From Candidatus Avilachnospira avicola (GTDB taxonomy: Bacteria > Bacillota > Clostridia > Lachnospirales > Lachnospiraceae): DNA of 46,272 nt. The stretch spans positions 1 through 46,272 of the forward strand of contig DVNQ01000125.1 in the NCBI GenBank assembly GCA_018714245.1, written 5' to 3'. The notes beneath the pieces were generated by a model that saw nothing but the letters and a program-made list of their open reading frames with translations, made no database searches and had not been told where the DNA came from. The translations under genes were made by a program, and so were the position numbers. The first letter of the stretch is position 1. Every line of letters starts with the position of its first letter. Of the stretch, positions 2,295-15,161 are shown one piece after another.

Positions 2295-3512
2295 ATGACA
2301 GGCCTTCTTCTTTCGGTAATATATCTTTCATTCATAAGCCTTGGGCTTCCCGATTCCCTTCTTGGGTCGGCCTGGCCCTCCATGTATCGTGAGCTTAACG
2401 TGCCCGTATCATATTCCGGCATCATATCCATGATCATATCCGTCGGCACCATAGTCTCAAGCCTTCAGAGCGACAGGCTTACCAAAAGGCTCGGCCCGGG
2501 AAAGGTAACTGCAGTAAGCGTCGCCATGACTGCGGCGGCTCTCCTCGGATTTTCATTTTCAGGAAGCTTCCCTGCCCTCTGTCTGCTTTCCATACCCTAC
2601 GGGCTCGGAGCAGGCAGTGTGGATGCAGCTCTCAATAATTATGTCGCCCTTCATTACAGCAGCAGGCATATGAGCTGGCTCCACTGCATGTGGGGAGTCG
2701 GGGCATCTGTTGGTCCTTACATCATGGGCTATGCACTTACCAGGGGATCAGGCTGGAATCAGGGCTACCTCATTGTTGCCCTGCTGCAGTTCCTGCTTTC
2801 CGCCATACTCATATCCAGCCTGCCTCTTTGGAACAGACAGGGCAATGGCAGTCAGAACCAGATCAAAAGTCCTGAAACCAAGGTTTCTGAAACTTCCGGG
2901 GAAGAGATAAGAGGGACCATGGACATAGGGCCTGCTGCCCTTTCTTTAAGACAGATCTTTTCCATACCCGGAGCCAAATCCCTTATCACCGCATTTTTCT
3001 GCTACATGGCTCTGGAGACAACGGCCTCCCTCTGGGCCAGCAGCTATCTTACTTTTGAAAAGGGAATTCCCTCAGCCTCAGCCGCCTCCTATGCAGGCCT
3101 CTTCTTCATAGGCATAACCTTGGGAAGAGCCATAAGCGGCTTTCTCACGATGAAGCTGAGCGATACGTCCATGATACGTCTGGGTGGCGGGATCATCGGC
3201 CTGGGACTTATCTCCCTGCTGCTTCCTTTAGGCAAAGCCTCATCCCTTTTGGGGCTTTCACTCATGGGGCTTGGATGTGCTCCCATATATCCCTGCATCA
3301 TCCACTCAACTCCAGTATATTTCGGCGCAGAAAGATCCCAGGCAGTGATCGGAGTCCAGATGGCAAGCGCCTATGTGGGAAGCTGTCTTATGCCTCCCCT
3401 GTTCGGTGTCCTAGGCAATCATCTCGGCTTCTTCCTCTACCCGCCGGTACTCCTGATCTTTCTGGCGCTTATGATACTCATGCATGAAAAGCTGGTAAAG
3501 ATAAAGCCATGA
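2295..3512 (+). CDS. Major facilitator superfamily transporter
   Basis: A 405-residue polytopic membrane protein with about 12 hydrophobic segments, the usual MFS number. The loop after the second segment carries the MFS-type basic motif (SDRLTKRLGPGK), and the second half repeats it in GRAISGFLTMKLSD. A hydrophilic central loop (about residues 175-220, rich in Ser/Glu/Gln) separates the two six-helix bundles. The first helix LGLPDSLLGSAWP resembles the fucose-permease-like branch, but the substrate cannot be read from the sequence. ATG at 2295 follows AAAGGAG by 6 bases. It is a single-gene transcript, ending towards the convergent liv operon. Confidence 0.88.
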   Translation: MTGLLLSVIYLSFISLGLPDSLLGSAWPSMYRELNVPVSYSGIISMIISVGTIVSSLQSDRLTKRLGPGKVTAVSVAMTAAALLGFSFSGSFPALCLLSIPYGLGAGSVDAALNNYVALHYSSRHMSWLHCMWGVGASVGPYIMGYALTRGSGWNQGYLIVALLQFLLSAILISSLPLWNRQGNGSQNQIKSPETKVSETSGEEIRGTMDIGPAALSLRQIFSIPGAKSLITAFFCYMALETTASLWASSYLTFEKGIPSASAASYAGLFFIGITLGRAISGFLTMKLSDTSMIRLGGGIIGLGLISLLLPLGKASSLLGLSLMGLGCAPIYPCIIHSTPVYFGAERSQAVIGVQMASAYVGSCLMPPLFGVLGNHLGFFLYPPVLLIFLALMILMHEKLVKIKP

Positions 3513-3564: not shown

Positions 3565-3641
3565 AAAAAACTGCCCGGTATATATTGTTGGGTGTCTGCT
3601 GCCTCAAAGAGGCGAAGGGCCCAACAGTATATACCGGGCAG
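3565..3641 (-). terminator. Structured hairpin element, copy A (terminator of the liv operon; conserved core)
   Basis: A long hairpin between convergent genes. The outer stem is 14 bp (3571-3584 with 3628-3641), then a TT/AG internal loop, then a 6-bp stem GTTGGG/CCCAAC (3587-3592 with 3620-3625). The next internal loop is asymmetric: TGTCTGCT (3593-3600) facing GAAGGG (3614-3619). The apex is a GCCTC/GAGGC stem with an AAA loop. On the minus strand a run of six T (3565-3570) follows the stem, so it should terminate livF transcripts. The core is nearly identical to that of the element at 13021-13098. Confidence 0.8.
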
Positions 3642-3658
3642 AATTAATTCTGTAATGG

Positions 3659-4372
3659 TTATTCTGACAGATATGCCGACTTTACCTTCGGATCCTCCAT
3701 AAGCTCCCTGGCATTGCCCTCAAGCACGATCTTGCCTGTCTCAAGGACATAGGCGCGGTCAGCGATAGACAGGGCCTTCTTTGCATTCTGTTCAACCAGA
3801 AGTATGGTCACTCCATCGGCATTTATCTTCTTTATGATCTCAAATATCTCATTTACATATATAGGAGAAAGTCCCATGGAGGGCTCATCCATAAGCAGCA
3901 GCCTGGGCTTTGACATAAGGGCCCGTCCCATGGCCAGCATCTGCTGCTCTCCTCCCGAAAGGGTGCCGGTACGCTGCTCCCTTCTTTCAAGGAGCCTGGG
4001 AAATCTCTCATATACCATATGAAGATCCTTTTCCACCCCTTCTTTATCACTGCGGGTATAGGCTCCAAGCATCAGGTTCTGATATACGCTGAGATCCGCA
4101 AACACACGCCTTCCCTCAGGCACATGTGCAAGTCCCCTTGATACCAGCTTGAATCCGGGCACCTTCAGTATGTCGCTGTCCTCATATATGACCTCACCGC
4201 TCTTTGCAGGTATCAGCCCTGATATAGTCTGCAGCGTGGTGGTCTTTCCCGCTCCGTTTGCACCTATAAGAGTGACTATCTCACCCCGTCCCACATGGAA
4301 GGAGATATTTTTTATGGCATGGATGACACCATAATATACATTTAAGTCCTTTACACTGAGTATGTTTTCCAT
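3659..4372 (-). CDS. livF: Branched-chain amino acid ABC transporter ATP-binding protein LivF
   Basis: A 237-residue ABC ATPase, one of the two nucleotide-binding subunits of a hydrophobic amino acid importer. Walker A is GANGAGKTT, the signature is LSGGEQQMLAMGRAL and Walker B is LLLMDEPSMGL, followed by the switch His replaced by Gln in LLVEQNAK, which is typical of LivF. The LAHVPEGRRVF segment is also LivF-like. ATG at 4372 has AGGAGGAG just upstream. It is the last gene of the five-gene liv operon, 11 bases after livG, and is followed by the hairpin terminator at 3565-3641. Confidence 0.95.
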   Translation of the reverse strand: MENILSVKDLNVYYGVIHAIKNISFHVGRGEIVTLIGANGAGKTTTLQTISGLIPAKSGEVIYEDSDILKVPGFKLVSRGLAHVPEGRRVFADLSVYQNLMLGAYTRSDKEGVEKDLHMVYERFPRLLERREQRTGTLSGGEQQMLAMGRALMSKPRLLLMDEPSMGLSPIYVNEIFEIIKKINADGVTILLVEQNAKKALSIADRAYVLETGKIVLEGNARELMEDPKVKSAYLSE

Positions 4373-11695: not shown

Positions 11696-11724
11696 TTGAG
11701 AGATATTTACCTATTTGTTACAAT
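11696..11724 (+). promoter_or_regulatory. Promoter of prs
   Basis: TTGAGA (11696-11701) and TACAAT (11719-11724) are 17 bases apart, each one mismatch from consensus. The start codon is 50 bases downstream. Confidence 0.8.
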
Positions 11725-11773
11725 AAGCGTAAAGAGAACTGATCTGCCTGATCTCTTTAGAAAGGATCCCTTC

Positions 11774-12991
11774 ATGCCTAATACAAATAAGTATATTATA
11801 GAGGACATCCCGATAGCTCCTCTTAAGATTGCTGCGCACATAAGCGCACGGCCTCTTGCGGAAGAGGTCGATCGTCATCTGGTCTCTTTTCGTAAAAATG
11901 ATTATGAGATACTTAAGCAGACCTATAAGGAGAGCCTTCTCCTTAAAGGTTTCGCTCCGGATACCTTCCTTCTCAAGCTGGACTGTCCAAGATTCGGTTC
12001 CGGAGAGGGAAAGGGCATCATATACGAATCCACCAGAGGTGTGGATGAATTCGTAATCTGTGATATCACAAACTATTCCAATACATATACGGTAAACGGC
12101 TTCGTAAACCATATGTCCCCTGATGACAATTATCAGGATATGAAGCGTATCATAGGCGCATCCGTTGCCAGATGCCACAGGGTCAATGTCATAATGCCCT
12201 TCCTCTATTCATCCAGACAGCACAAGCGCACCAAGAGGGAGTCCCTGGACTGTGCAATGGCTCTTATGGAGCTGGTAAATATGGGAGTGAAGAACATCAT
12301 AACCTTCGATGCCCATGATCCCCGTGTTCAGAACGCCATACCCCTTTCCGGATTCGACAATATCATGCCTACATATTCATTTGTAAAGGCACTGCTCAAG
12401 TTCGATCCCAACATACGCATAGACAGGGACAATTTCATGGTCATATCCCCCGATGAAGGTGCCATGAACAGAGCCGTATACCTTGCCAACAACCTGGGTG
12501 TGGACATGGGTATGTTCTATAAGCGGCGGGACTATTCAAAGGTCATAAACGGACGTAATCCCATAGTAGCCCATGAGTTCCTCGGCTCCTCAGTAGAAGG
12601 AAAGACAGTCCTTGTGGTGGATGACATGATATCCTCAGGAGACTCCATGCTGGATACTGCAAGGGAGCTCAAGGACAAAAAGGCCAAGAGAGTCATCGTA
12701 TGCTGCACCTTCGGCCTCTTCACCTCAGGCTTTGACAAATTCGACGACTACTACGAGAAAGGCTATATAGACTGTGTAGTGACCACAAACCTCAACTACA
12801 GGCCTGCAGAGATATATCAGAAGCCCTGGTATTATGAGGCTGACATGAGCAAGTATCTCGCTTCGATCATAAACTCCTTCAACTATGACATAAGCCTGAA
12901 GCATGCAGTCCAGTCCACAAAGAAGATCCAGAATCTCCTCAAAGGACACAGGAGCGACGGCTACGAGTATGAAGGAAGCCTGTTCGGCTAA
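11774..12991 (+). CDS. prs: Ribose-phosphate pyrophosphokinase (long form)
   Basis: PRPP synthetase makes phosphoribosyl pyrophosphate from ribose 5-phosphate and ATP for nucleotide, His and Trp synthesis. The 405-residue protein shows the PRPP-binding loop VLVVDDMISSGDSMLDT, the catalytic flexible-loop residues MFYKRRDYSK, and the His-rich region SSRQHKRTKRESLDCA. It is about 90 residues longer than the usual 310-320, with extra sequence at both ends (for example an N-terminal segment before the Rossmann-like core). The start at 11774 is chosen from AAAGGA 7 bases before it; the frame stays open to 11696, which is inside the promoter. A single-gene unit closed by the hairpin at 13021-13098. 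Confidence 0.92.
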   Translation: MPNTNKYIIEDIPIAPLKIAAHISARPLAEEVDRHLVSFRKNDYEILKQTYKESLLLKGFAPDTFLLKLDCPRFGSGEGKGIIYESTRGVDEFVICDITNYSNTYTVNGFVNHMSPDDNYQDMKRIIGASVARCHRVNVIMPFLYSSRQHKRTKRESLDCAMALMELVNMGVKNIITFDAHDPRVQNAIPLSGFDNIMPTYSFVKALLKFDPNIRIDRDNFMVISPDEGAMNRAVYLANNLGVDMGMFYKRRDYSKVINGRNPIVAHEFLGSSVEGKTVLVVDDMISSGDSMLDTARELKDKKAKRVIVCCTFGLFTSGFDKFDDYYEKGYIDCVVTTNLNYRPAEIYQKPWYYEADMSKYLASIINSFNYDISLKHAVQSTKKIQNLLKGHRSDGYEYEGSLFG

Positions 12992-13020: not shown

Positions 13021-13098
13021 TAAGGCTCCGGCCGTATATGATCGGGTGTCTGCTGCCTCTTTGAGGCAAAGGGCCCGATGTATACGGCCGGAGCCTTA
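13021..13098 (+). terminator. Structured hairpin element, copy B (between prs and thrS; conserved core)
   Basis: The outer stem is a perfect 18 bp (13021-13038 with 13081-13098). A small TG/G internal loop leads to ATCGGG/CCCGAT (13041-13046 with 13074-13079). Then comes the asymmetric loop TGTCTGCT (13047-13054) facing AAAGGG (13068-13073), and a GCCTC/GAGGC apex with a TTT loop. It matches the element at 3571-3641 at 24 of about 27 core positions, whereas the outer arms differ in sequence but remain paired. A T-rich tract follows on the plus strand, so it can terminate prs; it may also stop thrS from the other side. Confidence 0.8.
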
Positions 13099-13111: not shown

Positions 13112-14890
13112 TTAGTTTGCCTTGTCCGCTATCTCCTTCTTTACCCGGTCCATGAACTCGCTGAGAGCTACTGCACCCTCATCACCCTGCTTCCTGGAAC
13201 GTACGGATACGGTCTTATCATTCATATCCTTTTCACCGACAACGAGCATGTAAGGTACCTTTTCCTTCTGGGCTTCCCTGATCTTCCAGCCAAGCTTCTC
13301 GGAGCGCTTGTCCACCTCGACCCTGATACCCTCAGAATCAAGCTTTGCGGCAACCTCCTGGGCATAATCCATGAATTTGTCGGATACGGGAAGGACTTTG
13401 ACCTGAACAGGAGCGATCCATACCGGAAATGCACCTGCATAGTGCTCGGTAAGTATGCCTATGAACCTCTCTATGGATCCGTAAAGAACCCTGTGGATCA
13501 TGATGGGCCTATGCTTCTCTCCGTCAGCTCCCATGTATTCAAGTTCGAATCGCTGAGGAAGCTGGAAGTCAAGCTGTATCGTTCCGCACTGCCACTCACG
13601 TCCTATGGCATCTATAAGATGGAAATCGATCTTGGGGCCGTAGAAGGCTCCATCTCCTTCATTTATCTTGTATTCCATGCCGGCCTTATCAAGGGCATTT
13701 TTAAGGCCGGACTCTGCCATCTCCCAGTCCTCATCGGATCCCATGGAGTTTTCGGGCCTTGTGGACAGTTCCACAAAATATTTGAAGCCAAACAGTGAGT
13801 ATACCTGATCAATAAGTCTTATGACTCCCAGTATCTCATCAGTTATCTGATCAGGAGTCATGAATATATGAGCATCATCCTGGGTAAAGCAGCGTACCCT
13901 GAAAAGGCCGTGGAGCTGTCCGGATTTCTCATGTCTGTGCACTATGCCAAGCTCTCCAACCCTAAGGGGAAGGTCCCTGTAGGAACGGGGCTCTGACTGA
14001 TATATCAGTACTCCGCCGGGACAGTTCATGGGCTTTACGGCATAGTCCTCATCATCTATCACCGTAGTATACATGTTCTCCTTATAATGATCCCAGTGTC
14101 CTGAGGTCTCCCAGAGCTTTCTGTTAAGGATAATAGGGGTGCTTACCTCCACATATCCGTTCTTGTGATGTATCTGTCTCCAGTAATCAATCAGTGTATT
14201 CTTGACAGTCATGCCGTTGGGAAGGAAGAAGGGAAATCCCGGACCTGCTTCATTGAACATGAAAAGCTTTAATTCCTTGCCGATCTTTCTGTGATCCCTC
14301 TTTCTGGCTTCCTCCATCATGCGGACATATTCTTCAAGAGCCTCCTTATTGTCAAAGGCTGTTCCATAGATACGGGTAAGCATCTTGTTCTTCTCGGATC
14401 CTCTCCAATATGCTCCGGCTATATTCTGGAGCCTGAAGGCCTTTCCGACTGCCCTTGTGCTCTGCAGATGAGGGCCTGCACAAAGATCCGTAAAGTCCCC
14501 CTGTCTGAAGAAGGATATGAGCTCACCCTCGGGAAGATCCTCTATAAGCTCTACCTTATAGGGCTCGTCCTTTTCCTTCATGAGCTTTATTGCATCCTCT
14601 CTGCTGAGGGTAAAATACTCGATCTTAAGATCTTCCTTGATGATCTTTCTCATCTCTGTCTCGATCTTTTCAAAATCGGATTCGGATATGGGCTCCTCAA
14701 AGTCAATATCATAATAGAATCCGTCAGCAATGCTGGGGCCTATGGCAAGCTTTGCGCTGGGATAAAGTCTCTTTATCGCCTGAGCCAGCACATGTGAGCA
14801 GCTGTGACGAAGTGTGCTGAGGTAAAGGGGATCTTCCTTTGTGATCTCCTTTATGCTTCCGTCATGCATGGTGATCTTTACGTTGTCCAT
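13112..14890 (-). CDS. thrS: Threonine--tRNA ligase lacking the TGS domain
   Basis: ThrRS charges tRNA-Thr. The 592-residue protein has the editing domain (HSCSHVLAQAI with His29 and His33, and DLCAGPH), the class II core with the zinc-ligand Cys290 in MNCPGG, motif 2 (RHEKSGQLHGLFRVRCF), motif 3 (HRVLYGSIERFIG), and the anticodon-binding C-terminal domain (GEKDMNDKTVSVRSR). The editing motif is about 44 residues closer to the N-terminus than in E. coli, so the TGS domain is reduced to about 20 residues. ATG at 14890 follows AGGAGG by 6 bases, and no in-frame extension is plausible because the T-box terminator lies upstream. Confidence 0.96.
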   Translation of the reverse strand: MDNVKITMHDGSIKEITKEDPLYLSTLRHSCSHVLAQAIKRLYPSAKLAIGPSIADGFYYDIDFEEPISESDFEKIETEMRKIIKEDLKIEYFTLSREDAIKLMKEKDEPYKVELIEDLPEGELISFFRQGDFTDLCAGPHLQSTRAVGKAFRLQNIAGAYWRGSEKNKMLTRIYGTAFDNKEALEEYVRMMEEARKRDHRKIGKELKLFMFNEAGPGFPFFLPNGMTVKNTLIDYWRQIHHKNGYVEVSTPIILNRKLWETSGHWDHYKENMYTTVIDDEDYAVKPMNCPGGVLIYQSEPRSYRDLPLRVGELGIVHRHEKSGQLHGLFRVRCFTQDDAHIFMTPDQITDEILGVIRLIDQVYSLFGFKYFVELSTRPENSMGSDEDWEMAESGLKNALDKAGMEYKINEGDGAFYGPKIDFHLIDAIGREWQCGTIQLDFQLPQRFELEYMGADGEKHRPIMIHRVLYGSIERFIGILTEHYAGAFPVWIAPVQVKVLPVSDKFMDYAQEVAAKLDSEGIRVEVDKRSEKLGWKIREAQKEKVPYMLVVGEKDMNDKTVSVRSRKQGDEGAVALSEFMDRVKKEIADKAN

Positions 14891-14925: not shown

Positions 14926-15161
14926 AAAAAATCCCCTACTACAGTTTTGTAGTAAGGGACGATATGATCGCGGTTCCACCCTTATTGCGCAGGGCCTGGC
15001 CTGCGCCTCTCATTTTTGATTATAACGGAATCACCGTTCCCGATTAAGGGACGCTCCGAGGTGGTCTTCACTTCCGCTTCCCGTAAGGCGCTTCCAGCCA
15101 TGGCGTCTCTCTCTGTCACGTTTCACGGAGCTACTGTCCTCATCAACGCTTTAAATATACG
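14926..15161 (-). promoter_or_regulatory. T-box riboswitch of thrS (threonine)
   Basis: The 5' leader contains the T-box sequence AAGGGTGGAACCGCG (14969-14983), which pairs with the NCCA end of uncharged tRNA. Stem I features are present: GATGAGGACAGTAG at its base and AGAGAGA further in. The likely specifier is ACC (Thr) within 15060-15065, where two ACC triplets lie in tandem. A terminator hairpin (14932-14959) ending in six T (14926-14931) competes with the antiterminator. Uncharged tRNA-Thr should allow read-through into thrS. Confidence 0.93.

Follow-up and report, generated by a model that had tools for sequence, protein, structure and literature searches.

The hairpin family described here has its closest known counterparts among the REP sequences with their BIME and REPIN arrangements, among bidirectional intrinsic (Rho-independent) terminators, and among DNA-uptake-sequence terminators. 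In the last of these, found in Neisseria and the Pasteurellaceae, the repeated motif itself forms the inverted repeat. BIMEs serve as sites for gyrase or other nucleoid factors. REPs are palindromic, intergenic and dispersed, and lie downstream of coding regions in co-directional and convergent placement; the present family shares all these properties. As described in PMC3733652, PMC8266576 and PMC2817692, REPs, BIMEs and REPINs resemble it also in their inverted pairs, their lineage restriction and their proposed roles, which include termination. Some REP families are species-specific, and the CGTC REPs apparently have no dedicated transposase (both PMC3733652). The spread of REP-like palindromes without a RAYT is an open question, which the CGTC REPs pose as well (PMC3733652). 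The TnpA_REP of E. coli needs an AA-GC bulge and processes one REP strand only (PMC8266576). Our reading of the present family, held with slightly better than even confidence, is that of lineage-restricted, dispersed imperfect palindromes that work like REPs and BIMEs and double as two-way intrinsic terminators of the genes upstream of them.

The window, that is, the whole stretch of 46,272 nucleotides analysed, is contig C103 of a 1.58 Mb genome (G000) in 127 contigs, 91.9% complete. Two hairpins, copies A and B, are both present in it at the following positions.

3565–3570, minus strand: T6 (A6 on the plus strand), read directly, immediately 3′ of the copy A hairpin on the minus strand.
3571–3641, plus strand: copy A, whole hairpin, between an MFS transporter gene (2295–3512, plus; Pfam MFS_1) and an ABC transporter ATPase gene (3659–4372, minus; Pfam ABC_tran), which are convergent.
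3571–3592, plus strand: 5′ arm of copy A, pairing with 3620–3641 (95% complementary).
3593–3600, plus strand: core of copy A, 5′ side, TGTCTGCT.
3601–3613, plus strand: inner stem-loop of copy A, GCCTC-AAA-GAGGC; other copies have covarying variants of it, as short as GC..GC.
3614–3619, plus strand: core of copy A, 3′ side, GAAGGG.
3620–3641, plus strand: 3′ arm of copy A, from the inverted-repeat listing.
13021–13098, plus strand: copy B, whole hairpin, between a ribose-phosphate pyrophosphokinase-like gene (11696–12991, plus; here the X gene) and thrS (13112–14890, minus), which are convergent.
13021–13046, plus strand: 5′ arm of copy B.
13047–13073, plus strand: core of copy B, TGTCTGCT-GCCTC-TTT-GAGGC-AAAGGG.
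13074–13098, plus strand: 3′ arm of copy B.

The T6 at 3565–3570 is a terminator-like tract for the minus-strand ABC transporter gene, which we take to be livF-like. No other terminator-like site was found in the two gaps that hold A and B. The arms of the two copies are the two longest inverted repeats among those listed with at most 60 bases between the arms (22 nt at 95% for A, 28 nt at 89% for B), and folding z-scores for both copies, each on both strands, range from −8.7 to −10.7. The window has two instances of the pattern TGTCTGCTGCCTC-N3..5-GAGGCRAAGGG, compared with none in 100 dinucleotide shuffles, and the whole G000 genome has three.

No Rfam family exceeds its gathering threshold at the elements of the window or of five fetched loci; in the latter, searched at E≤1, the elements drew only sub-threshold microRNA hairpins. 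The only match over the whole window is a T-box leader (RF00230) at 14952–15155 on the minus strand, with 108.5 bits, directly upstream of thrS. The preliminary description had not recognized the hairpin as a named family. The Rfam comparison agrees with this, and no description of the family was found in the literature searched.

Searching the genome and the genus with a covariance model confirmed the claim of a repeat family that extends beyond the window. The family comprises 37 copies in two genomes, 9 in G000 and 28 in a congener, G019, whose assembly is 95% complete (92% for G000). Further model rows in these two genomes are reverse-strand readings of known hairpins, or weak. The genus search covered 25 genomes with the best candidates, at most 150 per genome, scored, and the other 23 yielded no convincing copy. 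Draws from the family, order and phylum (397, 392 and 398 genomes, under stricter filters and with 13 candidates scored per genome listed) returned G000 only; G019 evidently lay outside the draws. Of 80 genome-contig loci around the X gene, 30 were searched with the model and gave 0 matches.

Several candidates were rejected. A match in G003 (28.4 bits with R1, 23.8 with R2) is weak and its core match incomplete, one in G009 (21.6 with R2) is weak, and contig C57 of G009 fits a loose pattern with flanks that, read by eye, have no long paired arms. An origin from phage or plasmid is not supported: the sole exact viral match (L197) has no paired arms on direct reading, and copy B gave no phage match and just three plasmid matches, with E 0.6 and 78%. 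L-numbers here denote fetched loci around copies or compared gene ends.

The hairpins are about 53–78 bp long with arms of mostly 16–22 bp. The core consensus is GGG-TGTCTGC-N-GC...GC-R-AAGGG-CC, in which the inner stem varies and covaries and shrinks to two pairs at minimum. Among 36 copies the asymmetric core, GGTGTCTGC / RAAGGGCC, hardly varies. The first alignment had 10 copies (three exact cores in G000, six in G019 among seven rows from the loose pattern, and one beside those), and 15 of 28 pairs were compensated. The later alignment, A3, leaves out L172 1016–1080, a cut-off copy that overlaps its neighbour. In 35 distinct rows of 36 copies, 18 of the 28 pairs changed on both sides and 94.2% of cells pair, with a covariation score of 0.506 versus 0.144 when shuffled and at most 0.114 in slid controls. 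This alignment was fitted to the structure; arm pairing counted independently of the structure agrees. The inner 18 arm positions of 36 copies contain 574 Watson-Crick pairs, 35 G.T or A.C pairs, 11 other mismatches and 29 gaps, the script having taken 36 of the 37 copies and missed L183 994–1056, whose core is decayed. Two wobble pairs inside the core are kept in 33/35 and 35/35 rows. The conserved, unpaired, asymmetric core with covarying arms that had been proposed from two copies thus holds for the family.

The outer arms had been called unrelated, which is not wholly so, while their pairing and covariation stand. Over 36 copies they show a weak positional consensus, with CCC near the foot and TATAT in mid-arm. 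B-type arms recur at three sites in G019: those of L162 and L163 are unchanged, and those of L171 differ by a single base. A second subfamily with near-identical arms, of the CCCATTTTATATC type, occupies five sites. Because near-identical arms are shared within subfamilies at different sites, the dispersed unit is the whole hairpin. Insertion of a bare core into the loops of unrelated terminators was rejected: the arms share a consensus, near-identical arms recur elsewhere, and the terminators of relatives at equivalent gene ends have unrelated arms. Where a gyrase/topoisomerase-like gene (named by eye) ends in G019, an extra lone arm (TTGATATAAAATGGGGT, L176 1108–1124) stands in tandem behind the hairpin.

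T-tracts (at least 5 T in 8) stand beside the stem on the plus side in 31 of 36 copies, on the minus side in 25, on both sides in 22 and on either side in 34, compared with 10% of random 20-mers from the same loci. The preliminary description had contrasted the hairpin with a simple terminator, and this contrast is not supported. The hairpins sit at terminator positions with T-tracts on one or both sides, so that a terminator and a recognized structure are not alternatives. With bidirectional intrinsic terminators the family shares the stable hairpin and the T-tract, on both strands in 22/36 copies, and the often convergent position; it differs by an asymmetric internal core that is conserved from locus to locus and in both species, by dispersed subfamilies and by arms mostly of 16–22 bp. 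DNA-uptake-sequence terminators are likewise gene-end terminators made from a repeated motif, whereas the motif of this family is an unpaired core within a stem of free sequence.

G003, G008 and G009 have ordinary terminators of hairpin plus T, without the element, at several orthologous gene ends (thrS, the livF-like gene, the X gene, potD and others). A few of the gene ends compared in these three genomes showed no clear terminator. L259 (3′ of the livF-like gene of G009) and L286 (3′ of a peptidase gene of G008) have long hairpins without the core, with arms of 24 nt and loops of 3 nt, which are possibly members of other repeat families. In G019 a PhoU-domain gene and a hairpin copy are closely followed by the bacterial large SRP RNA (RF01854; L179 1124–1387, plus strand).

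With orthologs and multi-copy gaps merged by hand, the copies occupy 26 distinct sites, 11 convergent, 15 co-directional and none divergent; a mechanical count per locus gives 10, 19 and 0 of 29. L169 is counted as co-directional because the likely LysR start is downstream of the called one. Every gap that holds a copy contains the 3′ end of one or both flanking genes. The location between convergent genes, as first described, is true of A and B and not of the family, in which 15/26 sites are co-directional. The genus background, drawn from the window and from 24 genus-related loci that do not overlap it, comprises 61 gaps of 60 bp or more, of which 5 are convergent, 48 co-directional and 8 divergent. 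Compared with it the family has a convergent excess (11/26 sites versus 5/61 gaps, p=0.0004), although the background loci are not independent because many surround orthologs of one gene. Element-free gaps in the two carriers (3 convergent, 12 co-directional and 3 divergent of 18) give a convergent excess that is not significant (p=0.10). The excess expected from the preliminary description therefore stands against the genus background and not against the carriers alone. Taken alone, the lack of divergent sites does not reach significance (p=0.10 with the genus background, p=0.06 with the carriers' own). Three outcomes had been named that would speak against a structured family, namely two copies only, a match to an Rfam or repeat family, and no convergent excess, and none of them clearly emerged.

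The convergent excess over the genus background could also reflect a host site that works at the DNA level at convergent ends, where supercoils meet, with the core as a protein site and the palindrome extruding. Such a site would be orientation-neutral and agree with the strong constraint on the core sequence. We regard it as very unlikely. The density of copies is low (9 in 1.58 Mb), none of the 23 congeners has a convincing copy, and the excess is not significant against the carriers' background (3/18, p=0.10). Alone, it would leave unexplained both the T-tracts and the lack of other terminator-like sites in the two gaps of the window.

Comparison of the two carriers shows how strongly the core is constrained. 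Fourfold sites of eight flanking genes are identical between G000 and G019 at 497 of 923 positions (54%), which is near saturation. In seven ortholog comparisons between these genomes, the core (17 positions) is identical at 114/119, the arms at 198/238 and the flanks 24–60 nt out at 316/504, with random pairs of flanks 54% identical. The count of 114/119 enters B twice (against L162 and against L163) and does not contain the decayed pair L183 994–1056 / L174, the inclusion of which would lower it. This core conservation is purifying selection or ongoing conversion between copies. Conversion may be hinted at by L181 and L182 of G000, 5 kb apart, which share the inner stem CGC-GAA-GCG; L180, the ortholog of L181, is without it.

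Most sites have a single copy. A back-to-back pair unit, 243 columns at 94%, occurs at two G019 sites and resembles the BIME arrangement, a second pair arrangement is present at alr in both carriers, and L172 contains a tandem partial duplication. The ThrS tree, built from 21 of the 25 genus genomes (G010, G011, G015 and G023 were left out), groups G000 with the non-carrier G003 (92/95), not with G019. The carriers are therefore not established as sisters, and the shared orthologous copies imply either loss in G003 or an unreliable single-gene tree.

Orientation of the core is mixed. In co-directional gaps it is the same as that of transcription in 9 copies and opposite in 10, of 19 assigned by hand. 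The same absolute orientation reported for A and B is true of those two and does not extend across all copies. Since the core orientation is mixed with respect to transcription, the data do not point to an RNA that is recognized within the transcript of the gene. The second G000 hairpin at the amidohydrolase/gltS locus aligns to the third of G019 only when inverted (43.0 versus 18.5), and the flanks align directly (9.0 and 28.0 versus 1.5 and 7.0). At the X-gene end, B is likewise inverted relative to L162 (63.0 versus 21.5), so that two loci in all are inverted between the species. The left flank of B matches L162 and the right flank L163, which are 6.4 kb apart in G019 (window 13028–13092 versus C17:7494–13987). 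One genome therefore lost or gained the intervening DNA; as the matches place it, this is a rearrangement with its apparent breakpoint at the hairpin.

Termination could also be the only function of the family, if a single original terminator multiplied through slippage, recombination and gene conversion, with conversion keeping the cores alike and template switching keeping the arms paired. The tandem partial duplication at L172, the inner stem shared by L181 and L182 and missing in L180, the inversion of hairpins and the near-identical B-type arms between copies are all consistent with such copying. However, template switching that repairs a palindrome should erase a mismatched core, and the core is nearly invariant in 36 copies; the conversion tracts would also need to stop at the core while the arms differ. 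We consider this explanation quite improbable.

The arm mismatches carry a strand bias. On the core's plus strand G.T exceeds A.C by 27:8 (5:2 in copies oriented with transcription, 9:1 against it and 13:5 in the rest), and the excess is weaker, about 21:8 (two-sided p=0.02), once some related copies are set aside by hand. An excess of G.T over A.C is expected if one folded strand gets read. It suggests that the plus strand itself folds, from numbers that are small and related copies that are not independent.

The same bias would fit a host RNA element, in which an RNA-binding protein or a nuclease would attach to the internal loop of an mRNA 3′ hairpin to protect, process or terminate the message, with copies spread by recombination rather than transposition. 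The strong constraint on the core at orthologous sites, the two core wobble pairs kept in 33 and 35 of 35 rows, and the absence of copies from divergent gaps agree with it too. Nevertheless, the core is asymmetric and still lies 9 times with and 10 times against transcription, and it is inverted between species at two loci. The G.T excess of the opposite-oriented copies (9:1) is on the strand left untranscribed from the upstream gene, and close relatives lack a copy at several equivalent gene ends. An RNA element of the host is thus an unlikely explanation.

We return to the REP/BIME-like reading. Like the group 2 REP with its bulge, the family has a conserved mismatch zone in the stem, a likeness in kind, not in sequence. 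It differs in size, as REP hairpins measure 20–40 bp compared with about 53–78 bp here, and its long arms are nearly free in sequence while paired. REPs usually exceed 100 copies (PMC2817692), compared with 9 and 28 here. The family also differs from REPs, BIMEs and REPINs by the lack of a GTAG or CGTC tag and of a Y1 tyrosine transposase found in the carriers. No GTAG/CTAC or CGTC/GACG tag lies within 12 nt of either foot in any of 36 copies. Y1_Tnp/RAYT matches number 0 in G000 and G019 (assemblies 92% and 95% complete) and are present in 15 of the 25 genus genomes. Membership of the tagged REP super-families therefore fails, as judged from two incomplete assemblies that yielded neither tag nor Y1_Tnp.

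Other signs of mobility were sought. RVT_1 was matched in G019 only, among five genomes searched, and not in G000. A Pfam scan of 20 neighbouring proteins named no transposase, with four proteins giving no match. The search for a clean empty site with a target duplication found none; most gaps are too diverged, and the mgsA insertion is alignable and not clean.

In the REP/BIME-like reading, the arms and T-tracts would terminate transcription from either side. The asymmetric core would be kept because a putative protein reads the hairpin folded from one strand, by analogy with TnpA_REP and the bulge of the E. coli REP, and this one-strand reading may have let the family spread or be homogenized. 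The arms would stay paired through selection for termination, perhaps helped by template-switch repair of the palindrome. Against this reading, an immobile host element would likewise be conserved at orthologous sites. A fuller version, in which these are spreading two-way terminators without REP tag or transposase, with a folded single-strand core read by a putative enzyme, which replace ordinary terminators, invert in place and keep their arms paired by repeated compensatory change, is doubtful when all its parts are taken together.

The family provides a compact test, since a near-fixed core lies in free but paired arms, in two species, and three close relatives, with ordinary terminators at several of these gene ends, yielded no convincing copy. 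If the REP/BIME-like reading is true, the family would be a case of a repeat that has assumed a host function where genes end.

Some intervals between hairpin copies contain genes. In G019, L161 462–2046 and L168 1124–3176 encode AAA ATPases (ATPase_2/DUF234 and AAA_14/DUF4143, respectively), each between inverted hairpin copies, and at L168 a DUF1287 open reading frame also lies between hairpin copies.
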